Part shown: positions 415-53,338 of the stretch, piece by piece
How the letters are laid out: each line of letters opens with the position of its first letter
How positions within the stretch are numbered: position 1 is the stretch's first letter
Assembly (NCBI GenBank): GCA_017545595.1
Contig: JAFWLO010000010.1
Coordinates: 1 to 64,000 of the forward strand
Length of the DNA stretch: 64,000 nt
DNA from: Candidatus Saccharimonadota bacterium
GTDB taxonomy: Bacteria > Patescibacteriota > Saccharimonadia > Saccharimonadales > Saccharimonadaceae
Reading direction: 5' to 3'
Made by a program: the position numbers and the translations under genes
The notes under the pieces: generated by a model
The model's database searches: none
The model's input: the letters and a program-made list of their open reading frames with translations, nothing else
Told to the model about the DNA's origin: nothing

Positions 415-520
415 TTGGCGTCCATACCGCCAGGGAAATACCTGTTCCCATTCCGAACACAGAAGTCAAGCCTGGTAGGGGCGATTATACTGCAATAGCG
501 GGAAACTAGCAAGATGCCAA
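415..520 (+). rRNA. rrf: 5S rRNA
   Basis: The 5S core CTGTTCCCATTCCGAACAC is present, followed by AGAAGTCAAG. Helix I closes between TTGGCGTC at the 5' end and GATGCCAA at the 3' end, giving about 106 nt. The last 51 nt plus the terminator are duplicated exactly at 1510-1601. Confidence 0.9.
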
Positions 521-561
521 TTTATGATTAAACCTCCCCTTTAACGGGAGGTTTTTTCTTT
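470..561 (+). repeat. 92-bp direct repeat, copy 1 (5S 3' end plus terminator)
   Basis: Every base of 470-561 recurs at 1510-1601. The repeat begins inside 5S and ends just after the terminator T-run. Together the copies bracket a 948-bp insert. Confidence 0.97.
531..560 (+). terminator. rRNA operon terminator
   Basis: AACCTCCC pairs with GGGAGGTT across a short loop and is followed by a T-rich run. It lies 10 bp after 5S and is part of the duplicated 92-bp segment. Confidence 0.85.
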
Positions 562-595
562 GTCGGAAATTCGCACCCTATGCTATCATGTAGTC

Positions 596-877
596 ATGAC
601 CGACAAAAAATTCTCCAAGTCTGCCAATTTCTTCATTGTCATCGCCGCTCTCATCGCCCTCTCTGTTATTTTGGCATTCTTTTACTTCTCCTTCGACGGC
701 ACGGGGAGACTTCAGTGGTTACTCACGTTCCACAATGACGAACTCACCGACTTCGCCGAAAACTTCCTCAAAGGAGATTCTTGTTCAAAATCTATTGACG
801 TCGCAAAGAAATACCATTATAATAAAAATATCACCCCCCGGCCTGGGTCCGTCCCCGCCGGGGCCATATTTTTTTAG
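596..877 (+). CDS. small membrane protein of the 5S insertion
   Basis: I do not recognise this 93-residue protein. One clear membrane segment covers about residues 12-31 (FFIVIAALIALSVILAFFYF), followed by an acidic region and a C-terminus that reads through a GC-rich hairpin (TPRPGSVPAGAIFF). The ATG at 596 is preferred over the upstream one at 560 because a TATCAT -10 box (584-589) ends 6 nt before it, as in the leaderless genes of this genome. It sits 10 bp before the NYN gene and was probably inserted with it. The odd tail suggests a truncated 3' end whose last codons come from foreign sequence. Function is unknown. Confidence 0.5.
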   Translation: MTDKKFSKSANFFIVIAALIALSVILAFFYFSFDGTGRLQWLLTFHNDELTDFAENFLKGDSCSKSIDVAKKYHYNKNITPRPGSVPAGAIFF

Positions 878-887
878 AGAGGTGACT

Positions 888-1499
888 ATGAGTACTGTAG
901 TGTATATAGACGGCCAAAACTTTTTATACAAAGTCGCCGAAATTTTACAAAACGCTAATCTAATTTCCGACAAACAAGATCTCGTCTCTATAGACATAAA
1001 ATCTCTGCTCTCTAATCTCGCCGATGACAGTTCAGAGATCCGCTACTACGGCGTCAAACGAATTTGCCATAACGGCAAATACGGCAAAGAAATATCAGAC
1101 AAAGCCATTCGTTTCTCTGATAGCCTCCGCCGCTTTAAAAACTACCTCGCGCAAAACAACATCAAATACATCCCAAAGGGCAGCCTCAAAGTTCGCATCA
1201 CGGACGAATGTAAAAACTGCGGTTACATTGACTACAAATTCCAAGAAAAAGGCGTCGACGTCGGCCTAGCGGTAGATTTAGTTCGCGATGCGCTCGAGAA
1301 CAGTATCAAGCATATAATTTTACTGAGTTCCGACACCGACCTCTTACCAGCTCTCCAAATTATCAAGGAAAAACACGTCAAACTATCTTATATCGCCTTC
1401 AAAAATCAAGCTACCATCTCGCTTGCCAAAATCGCCGACCAGGTCCTATACTTAGAAAAGCAACAAATTATTGACGCCTATTTAGACTCCTTAAACTAA
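888..1499 (+). CDS. NYN (LabA/DUF88-type) domain protein
   Basis: A 203-residue protein of the NYN/PIN-like fold, predicted metal-dependent RNases. The ATG at 888 follows an AGAGGTGACT ribosome-binding site. The family signature is visible: YIDGQNF near residues 6-12 (first acidic residue), VDVGLAVDLV near residue 125, and LLSSDTDLLPALQ near residue 146, supplying the other catalytic aspartates. A DECKNCGY stretch could bind metal. Longer in-frame extension upstream is low-complexity and not supported. The gene is the main cargo between the 92-bp repeats, separating it from the rRNA operon. A different NYN gene occurs in the cassette island at 20.7 kb. RNase activity is inferred from the fold only. 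Confidence 0.8.
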   Translation: MSTVVYIDGQNFLYKVAEILQNANLISDKQDLVSIDIKSLLSNLADDSSEIRYYGVKRICHNGKYGKEISDKAIRFSDSLRRFKNYLAQNNIKYIPKGSLKVRITDECKNCGYIDYKFQEKGVDVGLAVDLVRDALENSIKHIILLSSDTDLLPALQIIKEKHVKLSYIAFKNQATISLAKIADQVLYLEKQQIIDAYLDSLN

Positions 1500-1509
1500 C
1501 CACATCCAT

Positions 1510-1601
1510 GCCTGGTAGGGGCGATTATACTGCAATAGCGGGAAACTAGCAAGATGCCAATTTATGATTAAACCTCCCCTTTAACGGGAGGTTTTTTCTT
1601 T
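1510..1601 (+). repeat. 92-bp direct repeat, copy 2 (5S 3' end plus terminator)
   Basis: Exact copy of 470-561. The partial 5S here lacks its 5' half and cannot be functional, but the duplicated terminator probably ends transcription of the inserted NYN gene. Confidence 0.97.
1571..1600 (+). terminator. duplicated terminator after NYN gene
   Basis: Second copy of the rRNA terminator hairpin and T-run. It lies about 70 bp after the stop of the NYN gene. Confidence 0.8.
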
Positions 1602-16829: not shown

Positions 16830-17093
16830 TCACCAGAGCCGATTCTTCATAATTTCTGAAGCTCTACAACGAACCGAGAACCCGTAGCCCTTGTGGCCCC
16901 CATACTGAGGATTGAAGCCTGTAGAGGCGAAGCTCTGGCCATGAGAGCCCGAGATAGACGAGGCAGAGAAAGTATGCAAAGACCAGTAGAAGCCGCCCGA
17001 ACTCCTGTCGTAAAGGCCAGTAGAGCTCCAGTAATAGGCGCCACTACGCATAAACGCAAACGGTTCGGAGAGAATACCGGAGTCGGCTCTGGT
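16830..17093 (-). repeat. VR cassette C1 (A-type)
   Basis: Reads TRADSGILSEPFAFMRSGAY through YWSLHTF and FNPQYGGHKGYGFSVRC. It belongs to the adenine-signature set (variable codons GCC, TAC, AGC, GGC, TAC and so on). The frame is open from C2 through C1 to a stop at 16830, the only place where two cassettes are fused in one frame. The full in-frame ORF is 16830-17537. Confidence 0.85.
16834..16846 (+). repeat. orphan left-border remnant of a cassette
   Basis: ACCAGAGCCGATT, the plus-strand A-type left border, is followed at once by unrelated sequence and the end of cassette C1. It is probably the scar of a lost or rearranged cassette. Confidence 0.6.
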
Positions 17094-17160
17094 GATGATT
17101 GTGGAGAAAGATGGTAATTTACTTGATATAAGAAGATAAAGTAGTATTATAAAGCTAATG

Positions 17161-17207
17161 GGAGCGACCCCGTTCTTGACTGAGCGAGGCCAAGCTCCTG
17201 TTTTTTT
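17161..17207 (+). terminator. hairpin with T-run between C1 and C2
   Basis: GGAGC and GCTCC are separated by a partly paired loop and followed by TGTTTTTTT. It lies in the 160-bp spacer between cassettes and could end transcription on the plus strand. Confidence 0.5.
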
Positions 17208-17255
17208 GTGATAGTTGAGAGAAGAATCGCGAAAACTATTCCAGACCTCGAAAAA

Positions 17256-17474
17256 ACAACGGACTGCGAAGCCGACGCCCTTGTAGCCCCCACCCTGAGG
17301 ACTGAAGTACGTAGAGAGGAAGCTCAGGCCGAGAGAGCCCGTGGTAGAGTAAGTATGCGCAGACCAGTAGCCGCCGTTCGAACTCCTACTGCCAAGGCCA
17401 GCAGGGAACCAGACATAATAGCTACTGCTAGGAAACGCAAACGGTTCGGAGAGAATACTGGAGTCGGCTCTGGT
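17256..17474 (-). repeat. VR cassette C2 (A-type)
   Basis: Reads TRADSSILSEPFAFPSSSYY through YWSAHTYSTTGSLG and GYKGVGFAVRC. Member of the adenine-signature set. Upstream it shares the 30-bp hinge (CAACGCTTTCTATGAATGTA) with divergent cassette C3, giving an in-frame MLLPTFIESVDLKRVEK leader by reading the hinge in reverse. Confidence 0.85.
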
Positions 17475-17517
17475 TGCTTTTGGAGTTTTCTCCACCCTCT
17501 TCAGATCAACGCTTTCT

Positions 17518-17838
17518 ATGAATGTAGGAAGTAGCATTAGGGCCGACTCAGGGATGATGTCAAACCCGCTTAACTTTGTTCGGGGTGGAGCGTATTATTT
17601 GAGTACGACAGAGTTCTATCATAAGTCGGATACCGGCTATCTCTGGACTTCTCGAAATTCCAACACTGATAAAGCCTTTCGTCATCATAACAATCCGGTA
17701 CACATTAATCCTGGTGCAGCCGATCATAAGGGGTATGGATATGCGATTCGCCGTGTCGCTATTCTGAAAGGAAATCATCAAGATAATTTAATACAGAGGG
17801 CCACCTATCGAGCGACACAACGGACAGAGAAGCCGTAG
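17518..17838 (+). CDS. cassette C3 (B-type, FISUMP-like domain)
   Basis: ORF of 106 residues starting MNVGSSIRADSG and ending its domain at GYGYAIRRV (about 17760); the rest is read-through into the end of C4. This is a lectin-like domain without signal peptide, promoter or ribosome-binding site, so it is probably silent. B-type DNA diverges at synonymous sites from the A-type set. Confidence 0.5.
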   Translation: MNVGSSIRADSGMMSNPLNFVRGGAYYLSTTEFYHKSDTGYLWTSRNSNTDKAFRHHNNPVHINPGAADHKGYGYAIRRVAILKGNHQDNLIQRATYRATQRTEKP

Positions 17839-18098
17839 CCAATAAAATCCGAATATGGAGAGAAAAAGTATGTTGGACCAAATAGCTGATAGTAGGAGTG
17901 TTTAGTTGGACGTATGCCCGAAGTCCAATAACCACCATACCAATTTCTATAATCAATAACGGTAGAAAGCCAAGTATAATATCCACTACGAGGAAACGCA
18001 AACGGTTCGGAGATAATACCGGAATCGGCTCTGGTTCTCTCCACCCTCTCCACCCTCTTCATCTCAACACTTTCTATGAATGTAGGAGATATTATCAA
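17805..18098 (-). CDS. cassette C4 (A-type borders, divergent core)
   Basis: ORF of 97 residues: a hinge-derived MIISPTFIESVEMKRVERVE leader, TRADSGIISEPFAFPRSGYY, then a core (TWLSTVIDYRNWYGGYWTSG) that does not fit the common template, and GYGFSVRC at the end. It is divergent from C5 across the hinge. No expression signals are seen. Confidence 0.5.
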   Translation of the reverse strand: MIISPTFIESVEMKRVERVERTRADSGIISEPFAFPRSGYYTWLSTVIDYRNWYGGYWTSGIRPTKHSYYQLFGPTYFFSPYSDFIGYGFSVRCVAR

Positions 18099-18450
18099 CG
18101 GCGATTCCGGAGCTTTGTCCGAACCATTCGCTCTTCTCCGTAATGGAGCTTACGTCTTTTACACTTCTGACTACTACGGTAGAGGATTGAGTATTTATTC
18201 TTGGTCTTCGCTTTCTTTTCTCGAGACGTCATCGAATAACTTATATTCACGCCCGGCACATTTCCAGCCTTCTAGCAGGCACCACAAAGGCTATGGTTTT
18301 GTGATTCGTTGTGCCGCTCTTCTCCAACCTCTTCGCCTCAACGCTTTCTATGAATGTAGGAATCGAAAAGAAAGCAGACTCAGCGATATTATCCGAACCG
18401 CTTGCGTTTATAAGAGGCGGAGATTGCCATTGGGGCAGCAGTGCTCTTAA
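18076..18450 (+). CDS. cassette C5 (B-type)
   Basis: Starts MNVGDIINGDSGALSEPFAL and the domain ends at GYGFVIRC near 18312. The open frame then runs out of frame through the hinge of C6, so the last 45 codons are not meaningful. It is probably a silent cassette. Confidence 0.45.
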   Translation: MNVGDIINGDSGALSEPFALLRNGAYVFYTSDYYGRGLSIYSWSSLSFLETSSNNLYSRPAHFQPSSRHHKGYGFVIRCAALLQPLRLNAFYECRNRKESRLSDIIRTACVYKRRRLPLGQQCS

Positions 18451-18598
18451 TGTCAGAGGAGCGGGTAGCCGTTATTGGTCTTCTCTCAGTATTAATACGG
18501 CGCAGTCTCGTTTCGCTGGCTCTAGTTCCACCGCTATTATACCAGCAAATGCGCTCGATAATGGGTATGGTTTTACGGTTCGTTGTGTATTTTATTAG
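18350..18598 (+). CDS. cassette C6 (B-type)
   Basis: 82 residues, MNVGIEKKADSAILSEPLAF to NGYGFTVRCVFY, preceded by the hinge in the frame FASTLSMNVG. It directly follows C5 in the same orientation. Confidence 0.5.
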   Translation: MNVGIEKKADSAILSEPLAFIRGGDCHWGSSALNVRGAGSRYWSSLSINTAQSRFAGSSSTAIIPANALDNGYGFTVRCVFY

Positions 18599-18617
18599 AA
18601 CTAAAAGATAGTCGAGC

Positions 18618-18847
18618 TAAAACACAACGAACTGCAAAGCCGCTGCCCTTGTAGTCCCCAGCCTGAGGATTGAAGCCCGTAGAGTAGAAGTTCTGGCGGG
18701 GAGAGTACGCGGTAGAGTAAGTAAGCGAAGACCAGTAGACGCCGCGCGAACTCCTACTGCTAAGGCCAGTAGAGTACCAGAGATAGAGGCCACTACTAGG
18801 AAACGCAAACGGTTCGGATAGAATACCGGAGTCGGCTCCGGTTCTCC
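18618..18847 (-). repeat. VR cassette C7 (A-type)
   Basis: Reads TGADSGILSEPFAFPSSGLY through YWSSLTYSTAYSPRQ and GDYKGSGFAVRC. Member of the adenine-signature set (the His codon of the A-type consensus is CTT here). The only upstream ATG is out of frame, so it cannot be translated alone and must be silent or a donor. Confidence 0.85.
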
Positions 18848-18871
18848 ACTATCTTCGCCTCAACGCTTTCT

Positions 18872-19330
18872 ATGAATGTAGGAGAAAGTAATACCCTCAT
18901 GGCGGATTCTGGAGTTCTGTCGGAACCGTTCGGGCTCATTCGTAATGGCTATTACGGCTGGAATTCTACGAGTTTCCACAATATTGCAGGAAACGGAAGT
19001 ATTTGGTCAAGTCATGTTTATAGTAAAACGAGCGCTCATAGAAGCCTCTTTGGCTCTTCATACTTCGCTCCACAACTCGGAAATTACAGAGGTAATGGCT
19101 TTGCGGTTCGTTATGTTTACATTAATCTCGACACAGCGGACAGCGAAGCCTCGCCCCTTGTAGTTTCCATTTTGAGGATAGAAATCCGCATTACTAAAGC
19201 TCTGATAACGCGCGTATTCGGTAGAATATCCATACGAAGACCAATAATCTCCGCTGGCGCCTCTATTATTGAGACTCGAAGATTGCCAATGGTAATAACC
19301 TCCATGTATAAATCCAAACGACTCAGATAA
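18872..19330 (+). CDS. cassette C8 (B-type)
   Basis: Starts MNVGESNTLMADSGVLSEPF, domain end GNGFAVRYV near 19120. The frame then stays open antisense through C9 to 19330, so only the first 83 or so codons are meaningful. It converges with C9; the two share sequence at their abutting ends. Confidence 0.45.
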   Translation: MNVGESNTLMADSGVLSEPFGLIRNGYYGWNSTSFHNIAGNGSIWSSHVYSKTSAHRSLFGSSYFAPQLGNYRGNGFAVRYVYINLDTADSEASPLVVSILRIEIRITKALITRVFGRISIRRPIISAGASIIETRRLPMVITSMYKSKRLR

Positions 19331-19369
19331 AATCCCCGAATCTGCATTATTCTTACTTCCTACATTCAT
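19130..19369 (-). CDS. cassette C9 (B-type)
   Basis: Starts MNVGSKNNADSGILSESFGF and its domain ends GRGFAVRCV. The formal ORF extends antisense into C8 to 19058. The hinge (STLSMNVG) precedes it and is shared with divergent C10. Confidence 0.5.
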
Positions 19370-19408
19370 AGAAAGCGTTGAGCTGAAGAGGTTGGAGACA
19401 TATTATCC

Positions 19409-19635
19409 TCACCAGAGCCGACTCCGGTATTCTCTCCGAACCGTTTGCGTCTCCTCGTAATGGCAACTATAACTGGGGCTCTACTCGTCTTAACAGTAGG
19501 AGTTCTGGCGGCTACTACTGGGCTTCGCATACTTACTCTACCATGGTCTCTCACTACCAGGTCTACGGCTCTACGCTCTTCTCTCCTCAGAGGACCTACA
19601 GGGGCTACGGCTTCTCGGTCCGTTGTGCTGTTATT
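19409..19635 (+). repeat. VR cassette C10 (A-type)
   Basis: TRADSGILSEPFASPRNGNY through YYWASHTYSTMVSHYQ and RGYGFSVRC. Adenine-signature set. A short hairpin (ATTA-GAGA-TAAT) with CTTTT follows the domain end by a few bases. Confidence 0.85.
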
Positions 19636-19673
19636 AGAGATAATCTTTTCCTCGGTTCGTTAATGATTTTCTT

Positions 19674-19922
19674 CTATAGGAGTAAACAACGAATCGCAAA
19701 ACCAAGACCTTTGGCACGTGTGCTCTGCACTCGAAAGTTCGTCTCGAGAAAGTTTATATATCGAGCATTCTCAGTATTTAGGCTAAGAAGCGACCAAACA
19801 TTACCCTGCCGGCCCATGCTGTTCATTCTCCCAGAATAATAAGTATAATCTCCAGTTCTCAAATATCCGAACGGCTCCGACAGCAACCCCGAATCCGCAT
19901 TATCTTTACTTCCTACATTCAT
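19674..19922 (-). CDS. cassette C11 (B-type)
   Basis: 82 residues, MNVGSKDNADSGLLSEPFGY to GLGFAIRCLLL. The hinge upstream is shared with divergent C12. No promoter or ribosome-binding site. Confidence 0.5.
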   Translation of the reverse strand: MNVGSKDNADSGLLSEPFGYLRTGDYTYYSGRMNSMGRQGNVWSLLSLNTENARYINFLETNFRVQSTRAKGLGFAIRCLLL

Positions 19923-19980
19923 AGAAAGCGTTGAGATAAAGAGGTTAGAGAAGTCTTTTAACTGTCGCTTCGGCAATTTA

Positions 19981-20208
19981 CCAGAGCCGATTTTGGTATT
20001 ATCTCCGAACCATTTGCGTTTCTCCGTAGCGGTCACTATAACTGGTACTCTACCGACCTTAACAATAGGAGTTCGCGTGGCTACTACTGGTCTGCATATA
20101 CTAGCTCTACTATGTACTCTCACGGCCAAATCTTCTACTCTACATACTTCAACTCTCAGGGTGTGCACTACAAGGGCTACGGCTTCCCAGTCCGTTGTAA
20201 CCTCTGAG
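19981..20208 (+). repeat. VR cassette C12 (A-type)
   Basis: TRADFGIISEPFAFLRSGHY through YYWSAYTSSTMYSHGQ and YKGYGFPVRC, then NL and a stop. Adenine-signature set with a few extra transitions. Confidence 0.85.
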
Positions 20209-20216
20209 TTTTGACC

Positions 20217-20440
20217 AAGACAACGTATAGCGAATCCGTAGCCTTTATAGTATCCAATTTGAGGATAAAAATATGAATGGGAGTGATTATGAGAGTGAGA
20301 GTGCATGATGGAGTAAGTATGAGATGACCAGTAAAGCCCAACCGAGCTTCGAGTATGAAACTCTGTAGAATACCAAATAAAATGACCACCGCTAGGAAAC
20401 ACAAACGGTTCGGAGAGAATACCGGAATCGGCTCTGGTGA
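20217..20440 (-). repeat. VR cassette C13 (A-type borders, NNT core)
   Basis: TRADSGILSEPFVFPSGGHF through YWSSHTYSIMHSHSHNHSHS and YKGYGFAIRC. Its variable codons mostly end in T rather than C, so it came from a different or older template. The borders match other A-type cassettes. It abuts C12 tail to tail. Confidence 0.75.
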
Positions 20441-20450
20441 GAAATACACA

Positions 20451-20560
20451 GCAACATCTAAAGTTTCTTTTAAGAGACTAAAGACTCGGCCTAAGCGGCC
20501 TGGCGAGCGCTAGACGCGCGAGACGGAGCGGGCTCTTAAAAGAGAAAGCTTTAGTGTTGC
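20451..20560. ncRNA. long imperfect hairpin, candidate structured RNA
   Basis: GCAACATCTAAAGTTTC... at 20451-20476 pairs with 20533-20560 (27-28 nt arms with two or three mismatches). The GC-rich 55-nt interior can fold further. It lies in the island spacer between C13 and the NYN gene and has no ORF. Confidence 0.45.
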
Positions 20561-20572
20561 TTTAACAAATTT

Positions 20573-20597
20573 ACCAGAGCCGATTTTGGAGTTATCT
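20573..20597 (+). repeat. truncated A-type cassette border
   Basis: ACCAGAGCCGATTTTGG plus the next few bases (to GTTATCT) match the start of C12, then homology stops. It is a remnant about 110 bp upstream of the NYN gene. Confidence 0.65.
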
Positions 20598-20706
20598 ATT
20601 GAACTTCAAGAAAGTATGTGTTAAAATAAAATCGTATTACGATGAGGGTAAAGCGAACGGAGAAATACCTAAGCGAATCCCTCTTTTTTTGTGCTAGAAT
20701 AACGAT

Positions 20707-21219
20707 ATGAACACACTAAGAAATATCGCCTTTATTGACGGGCAAAATCTTAACTATAGCACCGTTGATAGTAAGCCATCTTGGAAGATTGGGCTAGTCC
20801 GATTCAGAACTTACTTAAAAGAAAAATACCAAGTGGATGAAGCATATTATTTCTTAGGCTGCATAGACGATAATTATAGTGAATTATACGACAATATTCA
20901 AAGGGCTGGCTTTATTCTAGTTTTCCGAGAACACAACTCGAAATTTTTATCCGTCAAAAAGGGTAACGTTGACACCGATATCGTATTTTCGGTAATGAAA
21001 AAACTCTATAAACGGGAGAAGTTTAATAAAATAGTCTTAGTTTCCGGCGACGGAGATTATTATAAGATGGTCAAGTTCTTAGTGGAGGAGGACAGGCTTT
21101 GTAAGATTCTGATGCCGGTTAAAGCGCGTTCGTCGTCGCTCTATCGTCAGATTCCTACGAAATATCGAGATTATTTAGATAAGCCGGAAATTAAAAAGAA
21201 AATTGAACTAAAGCAGTAG
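20707..21219 (+). CDS. NYN domain protein in the cassette island
   Basis: 170-residue LabA/NYN-type protein. Motifs are AFIDGQNLNY (residues 8-17), KGNVDTDIVFSVMKKLYKRE near 95 and IVLVSGDGDYYKMVKFLVEE near 117, giving the acidic active-site set. The C-terminus is basic. It is not closely similar to the NYN protein at 888. A TAGAAT box ends 6 nt before the ATG, so it is probably leaderless. It sits between cassette remnants and C14, as cargo or as a functional partner acting on RNA; either reading is inference. Confidence 0.85.
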   Translation: MNTLRNIAFIDGQNLNYSTVDSKPSWKIGLVRFRTYLKEKYQVDEAYYFLGCIDDNYSELYDNIQRAGFILVFREHNSKFLSVKKGNVDTDIVFSVMKKLYKREKFNKIVLVSGDGDYYKMVKFLVEEDRLCKILMPVKARSSSLYRQIPTKYRDYLDKPEIKKKIELKQ

Positions 21220-21230
21220 GCTATTTTTAA

Positions 21231-21452
21231 CCAGAGCCGACTCCGGTATTCTCTCCGAACCGTTTGCGTTTCCTCATAGTGGTAGCTATTACTGGAACTC
21301 TACTGACCTTAGTAATAAGAGCTCGAACGGCGGTTACTGGTCTGCGCATACTTACTCTATCATGTACTCTCCCCGCCATGGCTTCAGCTCTACGTACTTC
21401 GCTCCTCAGGATGGGGTCAGCAAGGGCTACGGTTTTGCAGTCCGTTATGTTG
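21231..21452 (+). repeat. VR cassette C14 (A-type)
   Basis: TRADSGILSEPFAFPHSGSY through GGYWSAHTYSIMYSPRH and KGYGFAVRYV. Adenine-signature set. It lies head-to-tail with C15; the frame continues into the hinge as FLHPLRLNAIYECRKEFD and then stops. Confidence 0.85.
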
Positions 21453-21485
21453 CGTTTCTCCACCCTCTTCGACTCAACGCTATCT

Positions 21486-21734
21486 ATGAATGTAGGAAGG
21501 AATTTGATTAGGGGCGATTCGGGAGTACTGTCTTACCCTATCGCCTCCGTTCGTCACGGGCATTGTCACTGGGCTCTATCGATTCCGAATGCTAAGGGTG
21601 CGGGAGCCGATTTTTGGCTTTCTCGCTCTCTTAATAATGGTTTTTCTTACGATCACGGAATTAGTGGCGCGGCTCTCAATCTTGAGGGTATGTACGTAAA
21701 GGGATTTGGGTTTGGGATACGTTGTGTTCTTTGA
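21486..21734 (+). CDS. cassette C15 (B-type)
   Basis: 82 residues, MNVGRNLIRGDSGVLSYPIA to VKGFGFGIRCVL. The hinge (LFDSTLSMNVG in frame) precedes it. Like C22 it has an RNLxRGDSG start. Confidence 0.5.
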   Translation: MNVGRNLIRGDSGVLSYPIASVRHGHCHWALSIPNAKGAGADFWLSRSLNNGFSYDHGISGAALNLEGMYVKGFGFGIRCVL

Positions 21735-21751
21735 TGGTTTTCTTTCACGAA

Positions 21752-21975
21752 AAAACAACGCACTGCGAACCCGTTGCTCTTGTTGTACTCATACTGAGGA
21801 TCGAAGTACGTAGAGTTGGAGTAGTGACTGCGAGAGCCCGCGGCGGAGTAAGTACGCGAAGACCAGTAGAGGCCGCTCGAACTCCTGCTGTAAAGGCCAG
21901 TAGAGAACCAGCTATAGTAGCCACTCCGAGGAAACGCAAACGGTTCGGAGATAATACCGGAATCGGCTCTGGTGA
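21752..21975 (-). repeat. VR cassette C16 (A-type)
   Basis: TRADSGIISEPFAFPRSGYY through LYWSSRTYSAAGSRSHY and KSNGFAVRCV. Adenine-signature set (His codon changed to CGT). Converges with C15. Confidence 0.85.
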
Positions 21976-22038
21976 GGATTTCTATTAAACAACCTCACTA
22001 ATCATAGTCGCTATGAGAAAATGTTATAATAATCTATC

Positions 22039-22746
22039 ATGTATCAACAATTCCAAACCGAGCTAATATCTTATGCAGATGACGAATATCGCCAGTTTTC
22101 CATGCGCGGGATTCCTTGCGAGCGTCCGTTTCTTGGCGTTAGAATTCCGGACATTCGGAGACTGGTCGGAAAGATAAAAAGGGAGGATTTTGAGGAATTT
22201 TTAGGGGTCAAACCGGTGGCTTTTGAGGAGGTTATTGCTCGAGGCTTCCTTATTGGTCGTCTCGATTATAATGGCATTTTAGAATACTTTGATTCACAAA
22301 TTGAATATCTAGACAACTGGTGTTCGGTCGATACCTTTTGTTCGGCACTCCGCAAAAAAATTGAGAAAAATAGAGATGATTTCCTGGATAAGAAAATCGA
22401 ATCCTTGCTCAAAAGTGATAATGAATTCGCGACAAGAACTGGGCTGGTTTTTCTTCTTGATTTTTACGTCTCCTCAGAATACCTCCAGCTCATCTTTGAC
22501 CGCATCGAATCATTAAAAACTCGAGAAGAATACTATGTGAAAATGGCGCTTGCTTGGCTCGTTGCGGAATGTTTTATTAAATTTCCAGAGGAAACATTTT
22601 CGTATATGATTCAGAGCGAGCTAGATGACTGGACTTTCAACAAGGCGATCTCTAAAATTTGCGACTCTCGTCGAGTTGAGCCAGATATAAAGGCAGAGAT
22701 AAAGCGGTATAGACGAAGGGAGACACAACGGATTGTGAAGCCGTAG
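22039..22746 (+). CDS. AlkD-like DNA glycosylase (DNA alkylation repair)
   Basis: 235-residue HEAT-like repeat protein of the AlkD/AlkC group that excises alkylated bases without base flipping. Visible family features are RPFLGVRIPDIRRLVGKI, the catalytic-region LDNWCSVDTFCSAL (Asp-Trp pair), FATRTGLVFLLDFY and the final DWTFNKAISKICDSRRV. The last residues (RRETQRIVKP) are antisense to the right end of cassette C17, so insertion or recombination of that cassette has replaced the natural C-terminus. A TATAAT box ends 8 nt before the ATG (leaderless type). Confidence 0.88.
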   Translation: MYQQFQTELISYADDEYRQFSMRGIPCERPFLGVRIPDIRRLVGKIKREDFEEFLGVKPVAFEEVIARGFLIGRLDYNGILEYFDSQIEYLDNWCSVDTFCSALRKKIEKNRDDFLDKKIESLLKSDNEFATRTGLVFLLDFYVSSEYLQLIFDRIESLKTREEYYVKMALAWLVAECFIKFPEETFSYMIQSELDDWTFNKAISKICDSRRVEPDIKAEIKRYRRRETQRIVKP

Positions 22747-22943
22747 CCCTTGTAGCTCCCACTCTGAGGATTGAAGCTCGTAGAATTGAAGTGCTGGCGG
22801 CGAGAGTACTGGGTAGAGTAAGTATGCGAAGACCAGTAGTAACCGAGCGAACTCCTATCGATAAGGCTAGTAGAGCTCCAGTTATAGCGGCCACTACGAG
22901 GAAACGCAAACGGTTCGGAGAGAATACCGGAGTCGGCTCTGGT
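22725..22943 (-). repeat. VR cassette C17 (A-type)
   Basis: TRADSGILSEPFAFPRSGRY through YYWSSHTYSTQYSRRQ and YKGYGFTIRC. Adenine-signature set; the terminal variable codon is ACA, the inferred template state. A formal ORF 22611-22967 exists but most of its ends are antisense to alkD-like and ATPase sequence. Confidence 0.85.
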
Positions 22944-22951
22944 GAGAGAAC

Positions 22952-24226
22952 CTAATTCTTTAAACACCCAATCGGGATGACAAAAACTCCATCCCTGCGC
23001 CTATATGCATAAGTAGAAATCCCAGATAAAATCATTAGGAATGACGGTTCTTTCATGGAGGAGGTATCGACGGCCTCCTTGAACTTTATCAGATTAGAGG
23101 CGGCCTTATCGAGAGTTTCTTCGTCGGCGCCGAGTTTTATCTCGATTGCACCCCATTTTCCGTCAGGAAGATGAACAACGGCGTCGCATTCGAGACCATT
23201 TTTATCTCGGTAATAGAATAAGTCTCCGTCAAGGCTTTGAGCATATATTTGTAAATCCCTCAACGCGAGTGATTCAAAAACCAGCCCAAACGTATTAAAA
23301 TCGTTCAAAAGATCCTTTTCTGAAGCCCTTAGGGCGGCAACAGCAAGCGAGGGGTCGACGAAATTACGCTTTTTACTTGTTCGAATTTGAGTCTTGCTAC
23401 GAAGGTCTGGACACCAAGCCTCAACGTCGTCTATTATATGAATTCTCTCTAGAGTCGCTAGATAGGTGGAAATTGTCACGTCACTAATAGTTGATTCTCT
23501 GTCATCTTTAGTGTCTTCAAGGATAGTGTTTATGCTGGCTGGAGAGGCGATATTGCGAGCAAGACTGCGAAGTAGAACGCGCATTTTTGAGGGATTATGC
23601 GCGACGACATCCTCGGAGTTTACATCGTTACCAAGAATTGTGTTTAGATAATCTTTTGCGAGTTTATTGGCTTTCTCTGGCTTTCTTAGGACGTTCTCCG
23701 GCCATCCGCCACGAGCCGCGAGATACGCGACGTCCTCAAGCGTTAGTTCAGAGATGCCCTCAACGTCGGCCTCCTCGCTAAACAAATCTTCGAGAGAAAC
23801 CTTTCCGTTAGAATCTCCCGACTCGAACAAACTCATCGGGCGCATCGTAATGCGAGCAATTCGTCCGGCGCCAGAATGCTTTGGTTGCTTTTTTCTCGGG
23901 ACAGAAGAGCCGGTCAGGATATATTGGCCGACAAGGCCGGTTTGGTCAACATCATAACGGACGGCATCCCAGAGTTCTGGAGCGTCTTGCCATTCGTCAA
24001 TCATTCGGGGCTTTTCCCCCTCAAGAAGAAGACTGGGTTTATTTGCGGCGAGAGACAGATTGCTTTGGCGCGTATTAGGATTCTGAAGCTCAAGCTTGCT
24101 TCGGGCAAAACGTGCGGCGGTCGTGGATTTTCCGCACCACTTACAACCCTCAATAGAAACTGCACCATACAGCCTGAGGTCTTCCTCAATTAGTTTATCG
24201 ATTAATCTGGGTAAATATCTACTCAT
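22952..24226 (-). CDS. AAA ATPase with DUF4143 domain
   Basis: 424-residue AAA_14/DUF4143-type ATPase. Walker A is EGCKWCGKST (26-35), Walker B is PRMIDEWQDAPE, and sensor-like TGSSVPRKK follows. The C-terminal DUF4143 region ends with the nuclease-like core ECDAVVHLPDGKWGAIEIKLG, resembling a PD-(D/E)XK fold. The family is widespread in host-associated and mobile contexts, with unknown biochemistry. The TATAAT box is about 27 nt from the ATG, with a real AAAGGAG site. Upstream is the 23-bp repeat array, which may be its operator. It is flanked on both sides by cassettes. Confidence 0.9.
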   Translation of the reverse strand: MSRYLPRLIDKLIEEDLRLYGAVSIEGCKWCGKSTTAARFARSKLELQNPNTRQSNLSLAANKPSLLLEGEKPRMIDEWQDAPELWDAVRYDVDQTGLVGQYILTGSSVPRKKQPKHSGAGRIARITMRPMSLFESGDSNGKVSLEDLFSEEADVEGISELTLEDVAYLAARGGWPENVLRKPEKANKLAKDYLNTILGNDVNSEDVVAHNPSKMRVLLRSLARNIASPASINTILEDTKDDRESTISDVTISTYLATLERIHIIDDVEAWCPDLRSKTQIRTSKKRNFVDPSLAVAALRASEKDLLNDFNTFGLVFESLALRDLQIYAQSLDGDLFYYRDKNGLECDAVVHLPDGKWGAIEIKLGADEETLDKAASNLIKFKEAVDTSSMKEPSFLMILSGISTYAYRRRDGVFVIPIGCLKN

Positions 24227-24288
24227 TGTCCGCTCCTTTATGGGGCTATTATATCACATTTTTTAATTAAGCAAAATAACAGAGGTCA

Positions 24289-24417
24289 TTTGGTAATTTG
24301 GCTGGATTTTATTTGGTAATTTAGCCGAAAAAAATTTGGTAATTTGGCGAAGATTTGTTTGGTAATTTAACGCAAGAAAACTTGGTAATTTGGCAAAGAT
24401 TTATTTGGTAATTTAAC
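24289..24417. repeat. six-unit tandem repeat, exact 23-bp period
   Basis: TTTGGTAATTTGGC-like 14-mers start at 24289, 24312, 24335, 24358, 24381 (first base C) and 24404. Period is exactly 23 bp. The last three bases alternate GGC, AGC, GGC, AAC, GGC, AAC, giving a 46-bp higher order. The array is upstream of the ATPase gene. Confidence 0.95.
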
Positions 24418-24426
24418 GTGGAGAAA

Positions 24427-24695
24427 CAAGAGCCGATTCCGGTATTATCTCCGAACCGTTTGCGTTTCCTTATAGTGGTAACTATAACGGGCACTCTACT
24501 GGCCTTAACGGTAGGAGCTCGTTCGGCGTCTACTGGTCTGCGCATACTTACTCTACCACGAACTCTCACTACCAGTACTTCTTCTCTACGTACTTCGGTC
24601 CTCAGGCTGGGGGCAGCAGGAGCTACGGCTTAGCAGTCCGTTGTGTCGCTATCAGAGGATTAAAATTAATCTTTTTTGTAGGGTAAAGAAGAAAC
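24427..24695 (+). repeat. VR cassette C18 (A-type) with 3' tail
   Basis: TRADSGIISEPFAFPYSGNY through VYWSAHTYSTTNSHYQ and RSYGLAVRCVAIRG. Adenine-signature set. A roughly 45-bp tail after the domain (GATTA-AAAT-TAATC hairpin, then TTTTTT and GTAGGGTAAAGAAGAAAC) is shared with C26 at 57.7 kb. Confidence 0.88.
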
Positions 24696-24699
24696 TTCA

Positions 24700-24918
24700 C
24701 AACAAATCGCTATACCGTGTCCTCGCTGGGCTCTGTTCTGGTCGTAGAGAAGTGACGAATAAAACCCGAGTCCGTAATAATCGGTTTTGTCATTAACGCG
24801 AGAAGATATGTAATAGCCACCAGCGCTCCTGTTATTAAGGTTCGTGGAATTCCATCCAGTGTATCCGCTACGTATAAACGCAAACGGTTCGGAGATAATA
24901 CCGGAATCGGCTCTAGCA
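24700..24918 (-). repeat. cassette C19 (A-type left border, divergent core)
   Basis: ARADSGIISEPFAFIRSGYT, then a core (YYISSRVNDKTDYYGLGFYS) and an end (RGHGIAICC) that differ from the A-type consensus at many non-adenine sites. It is probably an older cassette that has acquired an A-type border. Confidence 0.7.
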
Positions 24919-24937
24919 AAAAATAGTTATTCATAAA

Positions 24938-25161
24938 CAACACTACGGACTGCGTAGCCGAAGCCCTTGAGGTTCCCATTCTTAGGACCGAGATATATAG
25001 AGTGGAAGGACTGGCAGGAAGAGCCAGCGGTAGAGTAAGTATGTAAAGACCAGTAGCTGCCGCTCGAACTCCTATTGTTAAGGCCAGTAGAGGTCCCGTT
25101 ATAGCTGCCACTATAAGGAAACGCAAACGGTTCGGACAGAATACCGGAATCGGCCCTGGTG
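24938..25161 (-). repeat. VR cassette C20 (A-type)
   Basis: TRADSGILSEPFAFPYSGSY through SYWSLHTYSTAGSSCQ and LKGFGYAVRSV. Adenine-signature set, with Cys to Ser at the last conserved position. Confidence 0.85.
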
Positions 25162-25206
25162 GCGTTCTACTGGCTACTTATTTTGAGATATCATGAAACA
25201 AAAATT

Positions 25207-25246
25207 GAGGGCTTGGCCTTTTGCTCTTCGACAAAAGGTCGCCCTC
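25207..25246 (-). terminator. terminator of the nuclease-fragment gene
   Basis: GAGGGC and GCCCTC plus an inner CAAAAGGTC/GGCCTTTTG stem. On the minus strand it is followed by AATTTTTG and lies 22 bp after the stop at 25268. Confidence 0.65.
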
Positions 25247-25267
25247 ATTAGTCACATTGTATCATGC

Positions 25268-25450
25268 TTACTTTTTGAAGTCTATCTCCCAGGCTTTGCC
25301 GCCCATCACGAAATCCGGAGTTTTTGCTTTTGGAGTATTGGAAGGTGGAATCAGTTCGATATTATGACCTAAATTAGTGAAAAACACCACTGTGTCATTT
25401 TCGTGTTTTTCTAGGCTGACGCCATTTGGCGTAATCTTTCCGACTTTCAT
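25268..25450 (-). CDS. short CdiA-C/phage-type nuclease fragment
   Basis: 60 residues. The C-terminal half (LGHNIELIPPSNTPKAKTPDFVMGGKAWEID, in part) resembles the first half of CdiA-CT tRNase-like toxin domains, which share an LG-IEXL...PDFXXXGXXWEXK pattern. The usual second half with further catalytic residues is missing, because the protein stops at DFKK. It is either a truncated toxin remnant or a small independent protein. It has its own terminator and sits between cassettes C20 and C21. I see no immunity gene. Confidence 0.55.
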   Translation of the reverse strand: MKVGKITPNGVSLEKHENDTVVFFTNLGHNIELIPPSNTPKAKTPDFVMGGKAWEIDFKK

Positions 25451-25501
25451 TTCTCTATTTTTATCAAAATACTACAAACTTGTAAAGCTAATGTTCTTTC
25501 G

Positions 25502-25727
25502 CCAGAGCCGATTCCGGTGTTCTCTCCGAACCGTTTGCGTTCCCTCGTAGTGGCAACTATGGCTGGTACTCTACTGGCCTTAACAATAGGAGCTCGCGCG
25601 GTCATCACTGGTCTTCGCGTGCCTACTCTACCTTGAACTCCAACTACCAGCACTTCGACTCTACGAACTTCAATCCTCCGGGTGTGGGCAACATGGGCTT
25701 CGGTTTCTCGATTCGTTGCGTGTTCAA
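25502..25727 (+). repeat. VR cassette C21 (A-type)
   Basis: ARADSGVLSEPFAFPRSGNY through HHWSSRAYSTLNSNYQ and MGFGFSIRCV. Adenine-signature set. It converges with C22; their ends overlap in a short palindromic CGTTG...CAACG region. Confidence 0.85.
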
Positions 25728-25966
25728 CAACGTATGCCAAACCCATAACCCCTAAACCATCCCGTCTTGAGGTCAAAAGCTGAAGAACTAAAATCATGAT
25801 ATCTTGATCCTGCACGGCTGTATGCGACCGAAGACCAATAACTTCCGGTTCTGCCTATGTTGTAGTTGCCCGCAAGAAACGAATCGTATGTTCCGACCCT
25901 AAAAAACGCAAATGGCTCAGAAAGAATCCCTGAATCGCCCCTAGTCAAATTCCTTCCTACATTCAT
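25724..25966 (-). CDS. cassette C22 (B-type)
   Basis: 80 residues, MNVGRNLTRGDSGILSEPFA to RGYGFGIRC. The in-frame hinge ILFDSTLSMNVG extends the open frame to 26011. It follows C23 head-to-tail, the same arrangement as C14-C15. Confidence 0.5.
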   Translation of the reverse strand: MNVGRNLTRGDSGILSEPFAFFRVGTYDSFLAGNYNIGRTGSYWSSVAYSRAGSRYHDFSSSAFDLKTGWFRGYGFGIRC

Positions 25967-26002
25967 AGATAGCGTTGAGTCGAAGAGGATAGAGAAGAAC
26001 GC

Positions 26003-26224
26003 ACGACACAACGAATTGCGAAGCCGTAGCCATTGTAGCGCCCAGTCTGAGGATTGAAGTACGTAGAGTAGAAGTACTGGAAGTGAGAGCTCGTGGTAGA
26101 GTAAGTAGGCGAAGTCCAGTAGTATCCGTACGAACTCCTAGTGTTATAGCTAGTAGAGCCCCAGCCATAGCCGCCGCTACGAGAAAACGCAAACGGTTCG
26201 GAGATAATACCGGAATCGGCTCTG
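26003..26224 (-). repeat. VR cassette C23 (A-type)
   Basis: TRADSGIISEPFAFSRSGGY through YYWTSPTYSTTSSHFQ and YNGYGFAIRCV. Adenine-signature set (His codon changed to CCT). Divergent from C24 across the hinge. Confidence 0.85.
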
Positions 26225-26256
26225 GTTTCTCCGCCCTCCTTGACTCAACGCTATCT

Positions 26257-26517
26257 ATGAATGTAGGAAGCAGTAAAATAAGAGCGGATTCGGGAGTTCT
26301 GTCAGAGCCGTTTGGGCTCTTGAGAAATGGTCGTTATAATGCACTTTCCGCAGTTATCAATACTAACGGCACGTACGGCCGTTATTGGATTTCTCGCATG
26401 AGAGATAGCTACATGCCACGAGGATTATGCTTTACCGATATTTATCTTTATACGGATTGGTTTTATAGTGGTTCTGGGTTTGCTGTTCGTTGTGTTGAAA
26501 TAATCATTTCTTTATAA
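26257..26517 (+). CDS. cassette C24 (B-type)
   Basis: 86 residues, MNVGSSKIRADSGVLSEPFG to SGSGFAVRCVEIIISL. Hinge upstream. It overlaps the end of convergent C25 by a few bases. Confidence 0.5.
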   Translation: MNVGSSKIRADSGVLSEPFGLLRNGRYNALSAVINTNGTYGRYWISRMRDSYMPRGLCFTDIYLYTDWFYSGSGFAVRCVEIIISL

Positions 26518-26529
26518 GTTCTCCCAGGC

Positions 26530-26755
26530 GACACAACGGACTGGGAAGCCGTAGCCATTGTAGTTCCCACGCTGAGGATAGAAGCTCGTAGAGTGGAAGT
26601 ACTGGTTGTGAGAGCCCGAGGTAGAGTAAGTATGCGAAGACCAGTAGTAGCCATCCGAACTCCTATAGTAGAGGCCAGTAGAGCTCCAGACATAGCCGCC
26701 ACTCCGAGGAAACGCAAACGGTTCGGAGATAATACCGGAATCAGCTCTGGTTTTC
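26530..26755 (-). repeat. VR cassette C25 (A-type), last of the island
   Basis: TRADSGIISEPFAFPRSGGY through YYWSSHTYSTSGSHNQ and YNGYGFPVRCVAW. Adenine-signature set. Here an in-frame ATG gives ORF 26512-26793, with MFFFYYIRESALKK before the border. No secretion signal is present, so I treat it as a silent cassette. Confidence 0.85.
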
Positions 26756-50582: not shown

Positions 50583-50670
50583 AAAACCGAACAAAACTAA
50601 AACCACGCTCCACCCCTGTAAAACCGAACAATACCTTAAAATAACCTTAAAGAAACCTTAAAATTAGCTT
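50583..50670 (+). repeat. dispersed intergenic repeat, copy 1
   Basis: A 56-bp exact core (50608-50663, containing CCACCCCTGTAAAACCGAAC) plus flanking similarity. It recurs at 53249-53338. It contains serial CCTTAAA units also seen near 4190-4230 and 6555-6590. Confidence 0.85.
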
Positions 50671-53266: not shown

Positions 53267-53338
53267 AATTATACTCCACCCCTGTAAAACCGAACAATAC
53301 CTTAAAATAACCTTAAAGAAACCTTAAAAATAGCTTAA
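53249..53338 (+). repeat. dispersed intergenic repeat, copy 2
   Basis: Begins inside the 3' end of the CBS gene (AAAACCGAACAAAGC) and runs into the spacer. The core 53274-53329 is identical to 50608-50663. Confidence 0.85.

Follow-up and report, generated by a model that had tools for sequence, protein, structure and literature searches.

The 948-bp segment that lies behind the rRNA operon at the start of the window (the whole 64,000-nucleotide stretch that was analysed, part of a 15-contig draft assembly) is, in the reading we favour with moderate confidence, a copy of an accessory, horizontally spreading module of a structured RNA and a ribonuclease (a toxin or a defence system), freshly inserted with a 92-bp duplication of its target. 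The RNA is uncatalogued, and the finding concerns a roaming RNA-enzyme module, not the 5S gene. The features of the locus are as follows:

414-522, + strand: intact 5S rRNA gene (Rfam RF00001, 84.7 bits, model positions 1-120)
470-561, + strand: direct repeat copy 1, 3' half of the 5S plus intrinsic terminator (exact 92-bp match to 1510-1601)
562-1509, + strand: inserted segment of 948 bp, enclosed by the two repeat copies
596-877, + strand: orphan ORF with a transmembrane-like stretch, doubtful as a gene (no Pfam match)
795-823, + strand: putative sigma-70-type promoter of the RNA, TTGACG (795-800), 17 nt, TATAAT (818-823), read from the sequence
827-869, + strand: structured RNA of about 43 nt (model R1, hit of 49.9 bits)
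888-1499, + strand: predicted NYN-domain ribonuclease gene, 203 aa (Pfam PF01936, E 7e-16)
1510-1601, + strand: direct repeat copy 2, 5S fragment plus terminator at 1570-1594 (exact 92-bp match to 470-561)

The exact 92-bp identity of the two repeat copies, reported in a preliminary description of this DNA, was confirmed; the match stretches to 95 bp with one mismatch if followed from 467/1507, and the spacing between the copies is 1040. The intact 5S lies on the rRNA side, as described there: Rfam gives one complete 5S, completed by the near copy, and the far copy has only the 3' half of the gene plus the terminator. Copy 2 starts 10 nt past the stop codon of the NYN gene, and its terminator could end the NYN transcript, in line with the suggestion that the cargo gains a terminator. 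As in many relatives, the contig starts within the 23S gene (at window position 1), so the remainder of the rRNA operon lies outside view. The NYN gene that had been placed within the insert is above the Pfam cut-off. The small membrane protein placed beside it is present as an ORF (596-877), but its status as a gene is doubtful because it is an orphan in the genus (no relative among 170 genomes except its own) and because the promoter and the RNA coincide in part with its final third. No integrase was found in 562-1509, as had been stated, and neither a transposase nor terminal inverted repeats were found at the insert.

The structured RNA had been omitted from the preliminary description. 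It is predicted to fold into a stem (836-842/857-863) and an inner stem of 3 bp (845-847/853-855) separated by a 2x1 internal loop (843-844/856) and closed by a loop of 5 nt (848-852), and there is a single hairpin per locus, without tandem repeats. In most loci the RNA match lies 3-5 nt past the end of a promoter-like -10 box, which usually has a -35-like box 15-18 nt ahead of it. All cells (100%) were paired in the nine RNA sequences from which model R1 was built, with changes on both sides in five pairs; among 36 distinct RNA sequences, the alignment of which was made to model R1 and so leans towards it, 99.4% of the cells were paired and 48 were double-change cells (12.6 in shuffled and 0-12 in slid controls). 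One pair is U-G in 17 cells, half of the cells of that pair, and these pair only on the + strand, which favours an RNA. A DNA hairpin of the integron attC type was disfavoured by these U-G pairs and by the aligned promoter, and a guide RNA was rejected, the loop being conserved instead of variable. Rfam had no family that matched 827-869, even with the threshold relaxed to E <= 10, and a search of IMG/VR with the RNA pattern returned no exact match. Within the genus, model R1 was found in 19 of 174 genomes, with one copy per genome apart from a single genome with two (the two weakest hits are probably due to chance); an order-wide search of 393 genomes gave it in 19. Weak R1 hits at L076, L084 and L009 (main model) were discounted as probable terminators of the plain kind; a variant hairpin is present in L006 and L009.

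The NYN protein scored 59.5 bits against PF01936 (curated cut-off 24.2), and the residues D8, D124, D149 and D151 were invariant in alignments of 9 and of 10 sequences. Its AlphaFold model has a mean pLDDT of 90, and the best Foldseek matches were VPA0982 and the NYN domain of MARF1; the protein is thus predicted to be a ribonuclease with an NYN/PIN-like fold and conserved active-site residues, and by Foldseek this is not the MazF fold of ToxN-like toxins. The PADLOC model HEC-09 (PDLC04163), for which no curated cut-off is given, matched residues 4-200 (E 1.2e-14). The nearest relatives of the protein belong to Candidatus Saccharibacteria.

The distribution of the module is patchy. NYN relatives occurred in 13 of 150 genomes at any similarity, a search of the genome contigs gave 18 NYN loci, and same-clade NYN genes were present in few genomes of the genus, in different neighbourhoods. 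The common order is RNA then NYN; the reverse was seen in L065, L066, L069, L071 and L053, and in such loci a -10 box of its own, read by eye, directly precedes the NYN start codon. The RNA also occurs without NYN, namely behind a DUF3800 gene (L067 and L068, above the Pfam cut-off for L068), ahead of a gene that encodes an RNRI(I/V)H motif (L073 and L080, “HEPN-like” by motif only, with no HEPN hit in Pfam), or alone (L070, L078 and L086). L067 sits in a prophage, between the minor-head gene and the scaffold gene. A second similar hairpin region (GCGAAACYGGCTCTATCCC...) was noted in L067 and L068, behind the DUF3800 gene and ahead of the RNA promoter. The NYN gene frequently shows decay (an internal deletion in L065, a stop codon in L066, truncation in L075 and L083, a split in L053), and in all of these the RNA is intact. 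Searching IMG/VR with the protein yielded three loci, one of them with the RNA; this contig (L177) carries an RNA-NYN pair with a truncated NYN among several large serine recombinases, together with a Fic/Doc-like ORF and a CdiA_C-like ORF. In L064, one of several weak NYN relatives from other phyla, the RNA match was only marginal. In L050 (533-3314) we also noted an array of small toxin-like genes (CdiA_C, NYN, MazF-like and, by eye, a second NYN-like ORF) separated by repeated ends that contain promoters.

The module copies sit at unrelated places, e.g., at the end of a cell-wall-type ORF, at the end of a glycogen phosphorylase gene, inside or after rplU, or beside murG/ftsQ; the neighbours of NYN, named by eye, include glycogen phosphorylase (L069), a glycosyltransferase (L066), rplU (L071), murG/ftsQ (L056 and L081) and uvrC (L053). 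Flanking direct repeats were detectable in 7 of the 33 RNA/NYN loci: 92 at the window locus, 83 nt in L050 (one mismatch), 43 nt in L066, 40 nt in L070 (one mismatch), 32 nt in L071, 31 nt in L006 and 23 nt in L069 (one mismatch). Among random points, a flanking direct repeat with a score of at least 20 was found at 1.0% (G033:C2) and at 3.4% (own genome, a control that leaves out 16-28 kb of the window, rich in variable-region repeats), and a score of at least 40 at 0.4-1.6%; the Fisher p for 7 of 33 loci is 7e-8 against G033:C2 and 1.2e-4 against the own genome. The window repeat is far beyond chance. In six of the seven repeat-flanked loci, the gap between the last unit of the module and the start of copy 2 is 3-17 nt. 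The insertion of L066 has an empty counterpart: in G029 the orthologous ORF runs directly into the glycosyltransferase gene, and the two are separated in G085 by the module together with a 43-nt duplication. The repeat of L071 is not a plain target duplication, because an intact rplU contains copy 1 and there is no rplU behind copy 2. The 26 loci in which no repeat was detected may be either old insertions with decayed repeats or products of another way of entry.

The preliminary description had likened the locus to a site-specific integration that regenerates its target, with the 5S as the site. A recent, target-duplicating insertion that left the 5S intact is upheld by our data, but the 5S as the specific target was rejected: the other copies share neither a target nor a core, their repeats differ in sequence and in length, which argues against a site-specific integrase, since such an enzyme would reuse one core, and the 5S neighbourhoods of 29 relatives, in which a search for other cargos had been suggested, included none with a cargo and a repeat. 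The 5S genes of relatives are followed by many different genes, and the neighbourhoods fetched lack the arrangement seen here, so the locus is not an old duplication shared with diverged repeats by all relatives. In relatives, the regions ahead of recA and around orf3 yielded no empty site of the 5S insertion itself, because gene order is not conserved and no close relative has the order 5S-orf3-recA. One tyrosine recombinase is encoded elsewhere in the genome, on another contig, and two serine recombinases on contig C5; a recombinase might conceivably have helped in trans.

We suggest that the module entered the genome recently, just behind the terminator of the 5S, and that its entry would have duplicated 92 bp of the target (an arrangement A-T-E-T-B), the 5S staying intact and the module acquiring a terminator. 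The module may travel as imported DNA, which is our preferred, conjectural route (ComEC is encoded on the same contig); one end of such DNA would be joined by homology and the other by illegitimate joining, and the length of the duplication would therefore be arbitrary. Other segments of the genome, one of them an AAA_14 ATPase gene, are also flanked by long direct repeats, so the duplication is not special to the module and may reflect a process common to this lineage.

Other origins of the insertion were weighed against this account. That the repeat starts within the 5S and ends behind it, leaving the near copy intact, would suit a small integrative element attaching at the 3' half of the 5S, regenerating the gene and depending on an integrase in trans; recombinases of the tyrosine and serine types do occur elsewhere in the genome, and the RNA-NYN copy of L177 lies among serine recombinases. 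Such an element is nevertheless very improbable, given the unrelated targets and unrelated repeats (23-83 nt) of the other copies, the lack of such cargo in the 5S neighbourhoods of relatives and the insert without a recombinase. We also consider it unlikely that a mobilising enzyme of unknown kind cuts the strands 23-92 nt apart (e.g., a diversity-generating-type reverse transcriptase, or a serine recombinase in trans). A gene at G000:C8:106495-107193 is 46% identical to the diversity-generating-type reverse transcriptase beside the solo RNA of L070, reverse transcriptase genes lie near the module in L070 and L071 (recognised by motif only), the AAA_14 ATPase gene has long flanking direct repeats as well, and copy 2 starts tightly behind the module, all of which would agree with such an enzyme; the copies, however, have no shared ends, inverted repeats or transposase, and the reverse transcriptase-like fragment of L071 has no Pfam match. 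Serine and tyrosine recombinases are not known to leave long variable duplications, which counts against this enzyme too. An assembly artefact or a plain local tandem duplication is hardly credible: the assembly is indeed a draft with a contig start inside the 23S, and diverged second 5S copies exist in other relatives, but the pattern recurs at various sites in several genomes that come from separate studies, one orthologous site is empty, and assemblers usually merge repeats and do not invent them around one gene family.

A further alternative concerns the hairpin, which might be only a terminator or a leader attenuator of the NYN gene, the insert then being an ordinary single-gene acquisition. 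A run of U follows the hairpin in many copies and the commoner order places it right before the NYN gene, as this would predict, but the hairpin loop and the internal loop are conserved and the U run is not (window, L050 and L072), a promoter precedes the hairpin in most loci, and the hairpin is found downstream of NYN in five loci and elsewhere by DUF3800, by the RNRIVH-motif gene or alone. We therefore hold this reading to be rather unlikely and retain the module of RNA and ribonuclease. Its NYN protein may act as a growth-arresting or defence ribonuclease, and the RNA would be its partner, which most likely inhibits it on binding or acts as a sensor, as in type III toxin-antitoxin pairs. 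From their linkage, the structure of the RNA and the kind of enzyme, the two most likely form an addiction or defence pair.

Type III toxin-antitoxin systems combine a tandem-repeat RNA that forms a pseudoknot with a ToxN toxin. Like these systems (ToxIN, CptIN, TenpIN), the module has a small structured RNA with its own promoter adjoining a ribonuclease gene (on the evidence of covariation and linkage), and both are accessory and sometimes found on phage or mobile DNA. It differs in that its RNA is a single hairpin with neither tandem repeats nor a pseudoknot, the enzyme is NYN (PIN-like) and not ToxN, the RNA may sit downstream (five loci), and other partner genes occur; a literature search returned nothing on NYN with type III toxin-antitoxin systems. 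The match to HEC-09 covers nearly the full length of the NYN protein, but HEC-09 is a single-protein model with no RNA component, and the NYN gene here is not in an Hma locus. HEC stands for Hma-embedded candidate, and some HECs were antiviral in assays (PMC12988326); HEC-09 itself is barely mentioned in the literature. In Bacteroides fragilis, crRNA trimming has been proposed for an NYN ribonuclease from a type III CRISPR locus (PMC11346440). It shares the NYN fold, the conserved aspartates and the structural kinship to VPA0982 and MARF1 with the protein described here, but neither a CRISPR array nor a cas gene was observed next to the module. As in genomic islands and integrative elements of the tRNA type, the 3' part of a stable RNA gene is duplicated and the gene kept intact; unlike them, the module has no integrase and no shared core, and its other repeat-flanked copies are not at RNA genes. 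With transposons and insertion sequences it shares a target-site duplication around the insert (92 bp here, and for L066 with an orthologous empty site) and unrelated sites, but it lacks a transposase and terminal inverted repeats, and its duplications are variable (23-92 nt). Nothing was found in the literature on Saccharibacteria with target-site duplications.

The lasting interest of the locus lies in the uncatalogued RNA with its ribonuclease and in the recurring long target duplications. In Saccharibacteria, which are reduced parasites, small modules for defence or addiction have seldom been described; with a structured RNA absent from Rfam tied to the ribonuclease, the candidate defence family that this enzyme matches would acquire an RNA partner and, with it, a mechanism open to testing. 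The duplications of target, long and variable in length, suggest that genes enter these genomes by a route not yet described, which bears on gene gain in small genomes. Tentatively, one may go further and imagine a single hairpin RNA family that serves interchangeable effectors (NYN, DUF3800 and the RNRIVH-motif, HEPN-like protein) in a cassette that spreads by duplicating 23-92 nt of arbitrary target through an undescribed mechanism; this would be a new class of RNA-controlled immunity or addiction in Saccharibacteria, a possibility we rate as doubtful.

Several other repeats were noted along the way. About 40 copies (with at most 2 mismatches) of the 20-nt motif AAACGCAAACGGTTCGGAGA, which resembles the variable-region core of a diversity-generating retroelement, lie in the window (17052-26710, both strands) and on contigs C2, C3, C5, C6, C8, C11 and C15 of G000, an unusually high number for a 745-kb genome. 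At G000:C2:71355-72666 the AAA_14 ATPase gene is flanked by exact 37-bp direct repeats that cover the end of the neighbouring ORF, apparently the same kind of insertion with another cargo. On the same contig a 35-nt piece from the interior of a valyl-tRNA-synthetase-like gene recurs in a neighbouring region at a distance of 1 kb (G000:C2:61181 and 62225), and a 56-bp direct repeat (window 50608-50663 and 53274-53329) surrounds an aspS-like gene, just ahead of a tRNA gene. In G160:C7, G063:C26 and G165:C46 (parts of which are L173, L174 and L175), a diverged second 5S-like copy (74-78%) lies directly behind the 5S gene.
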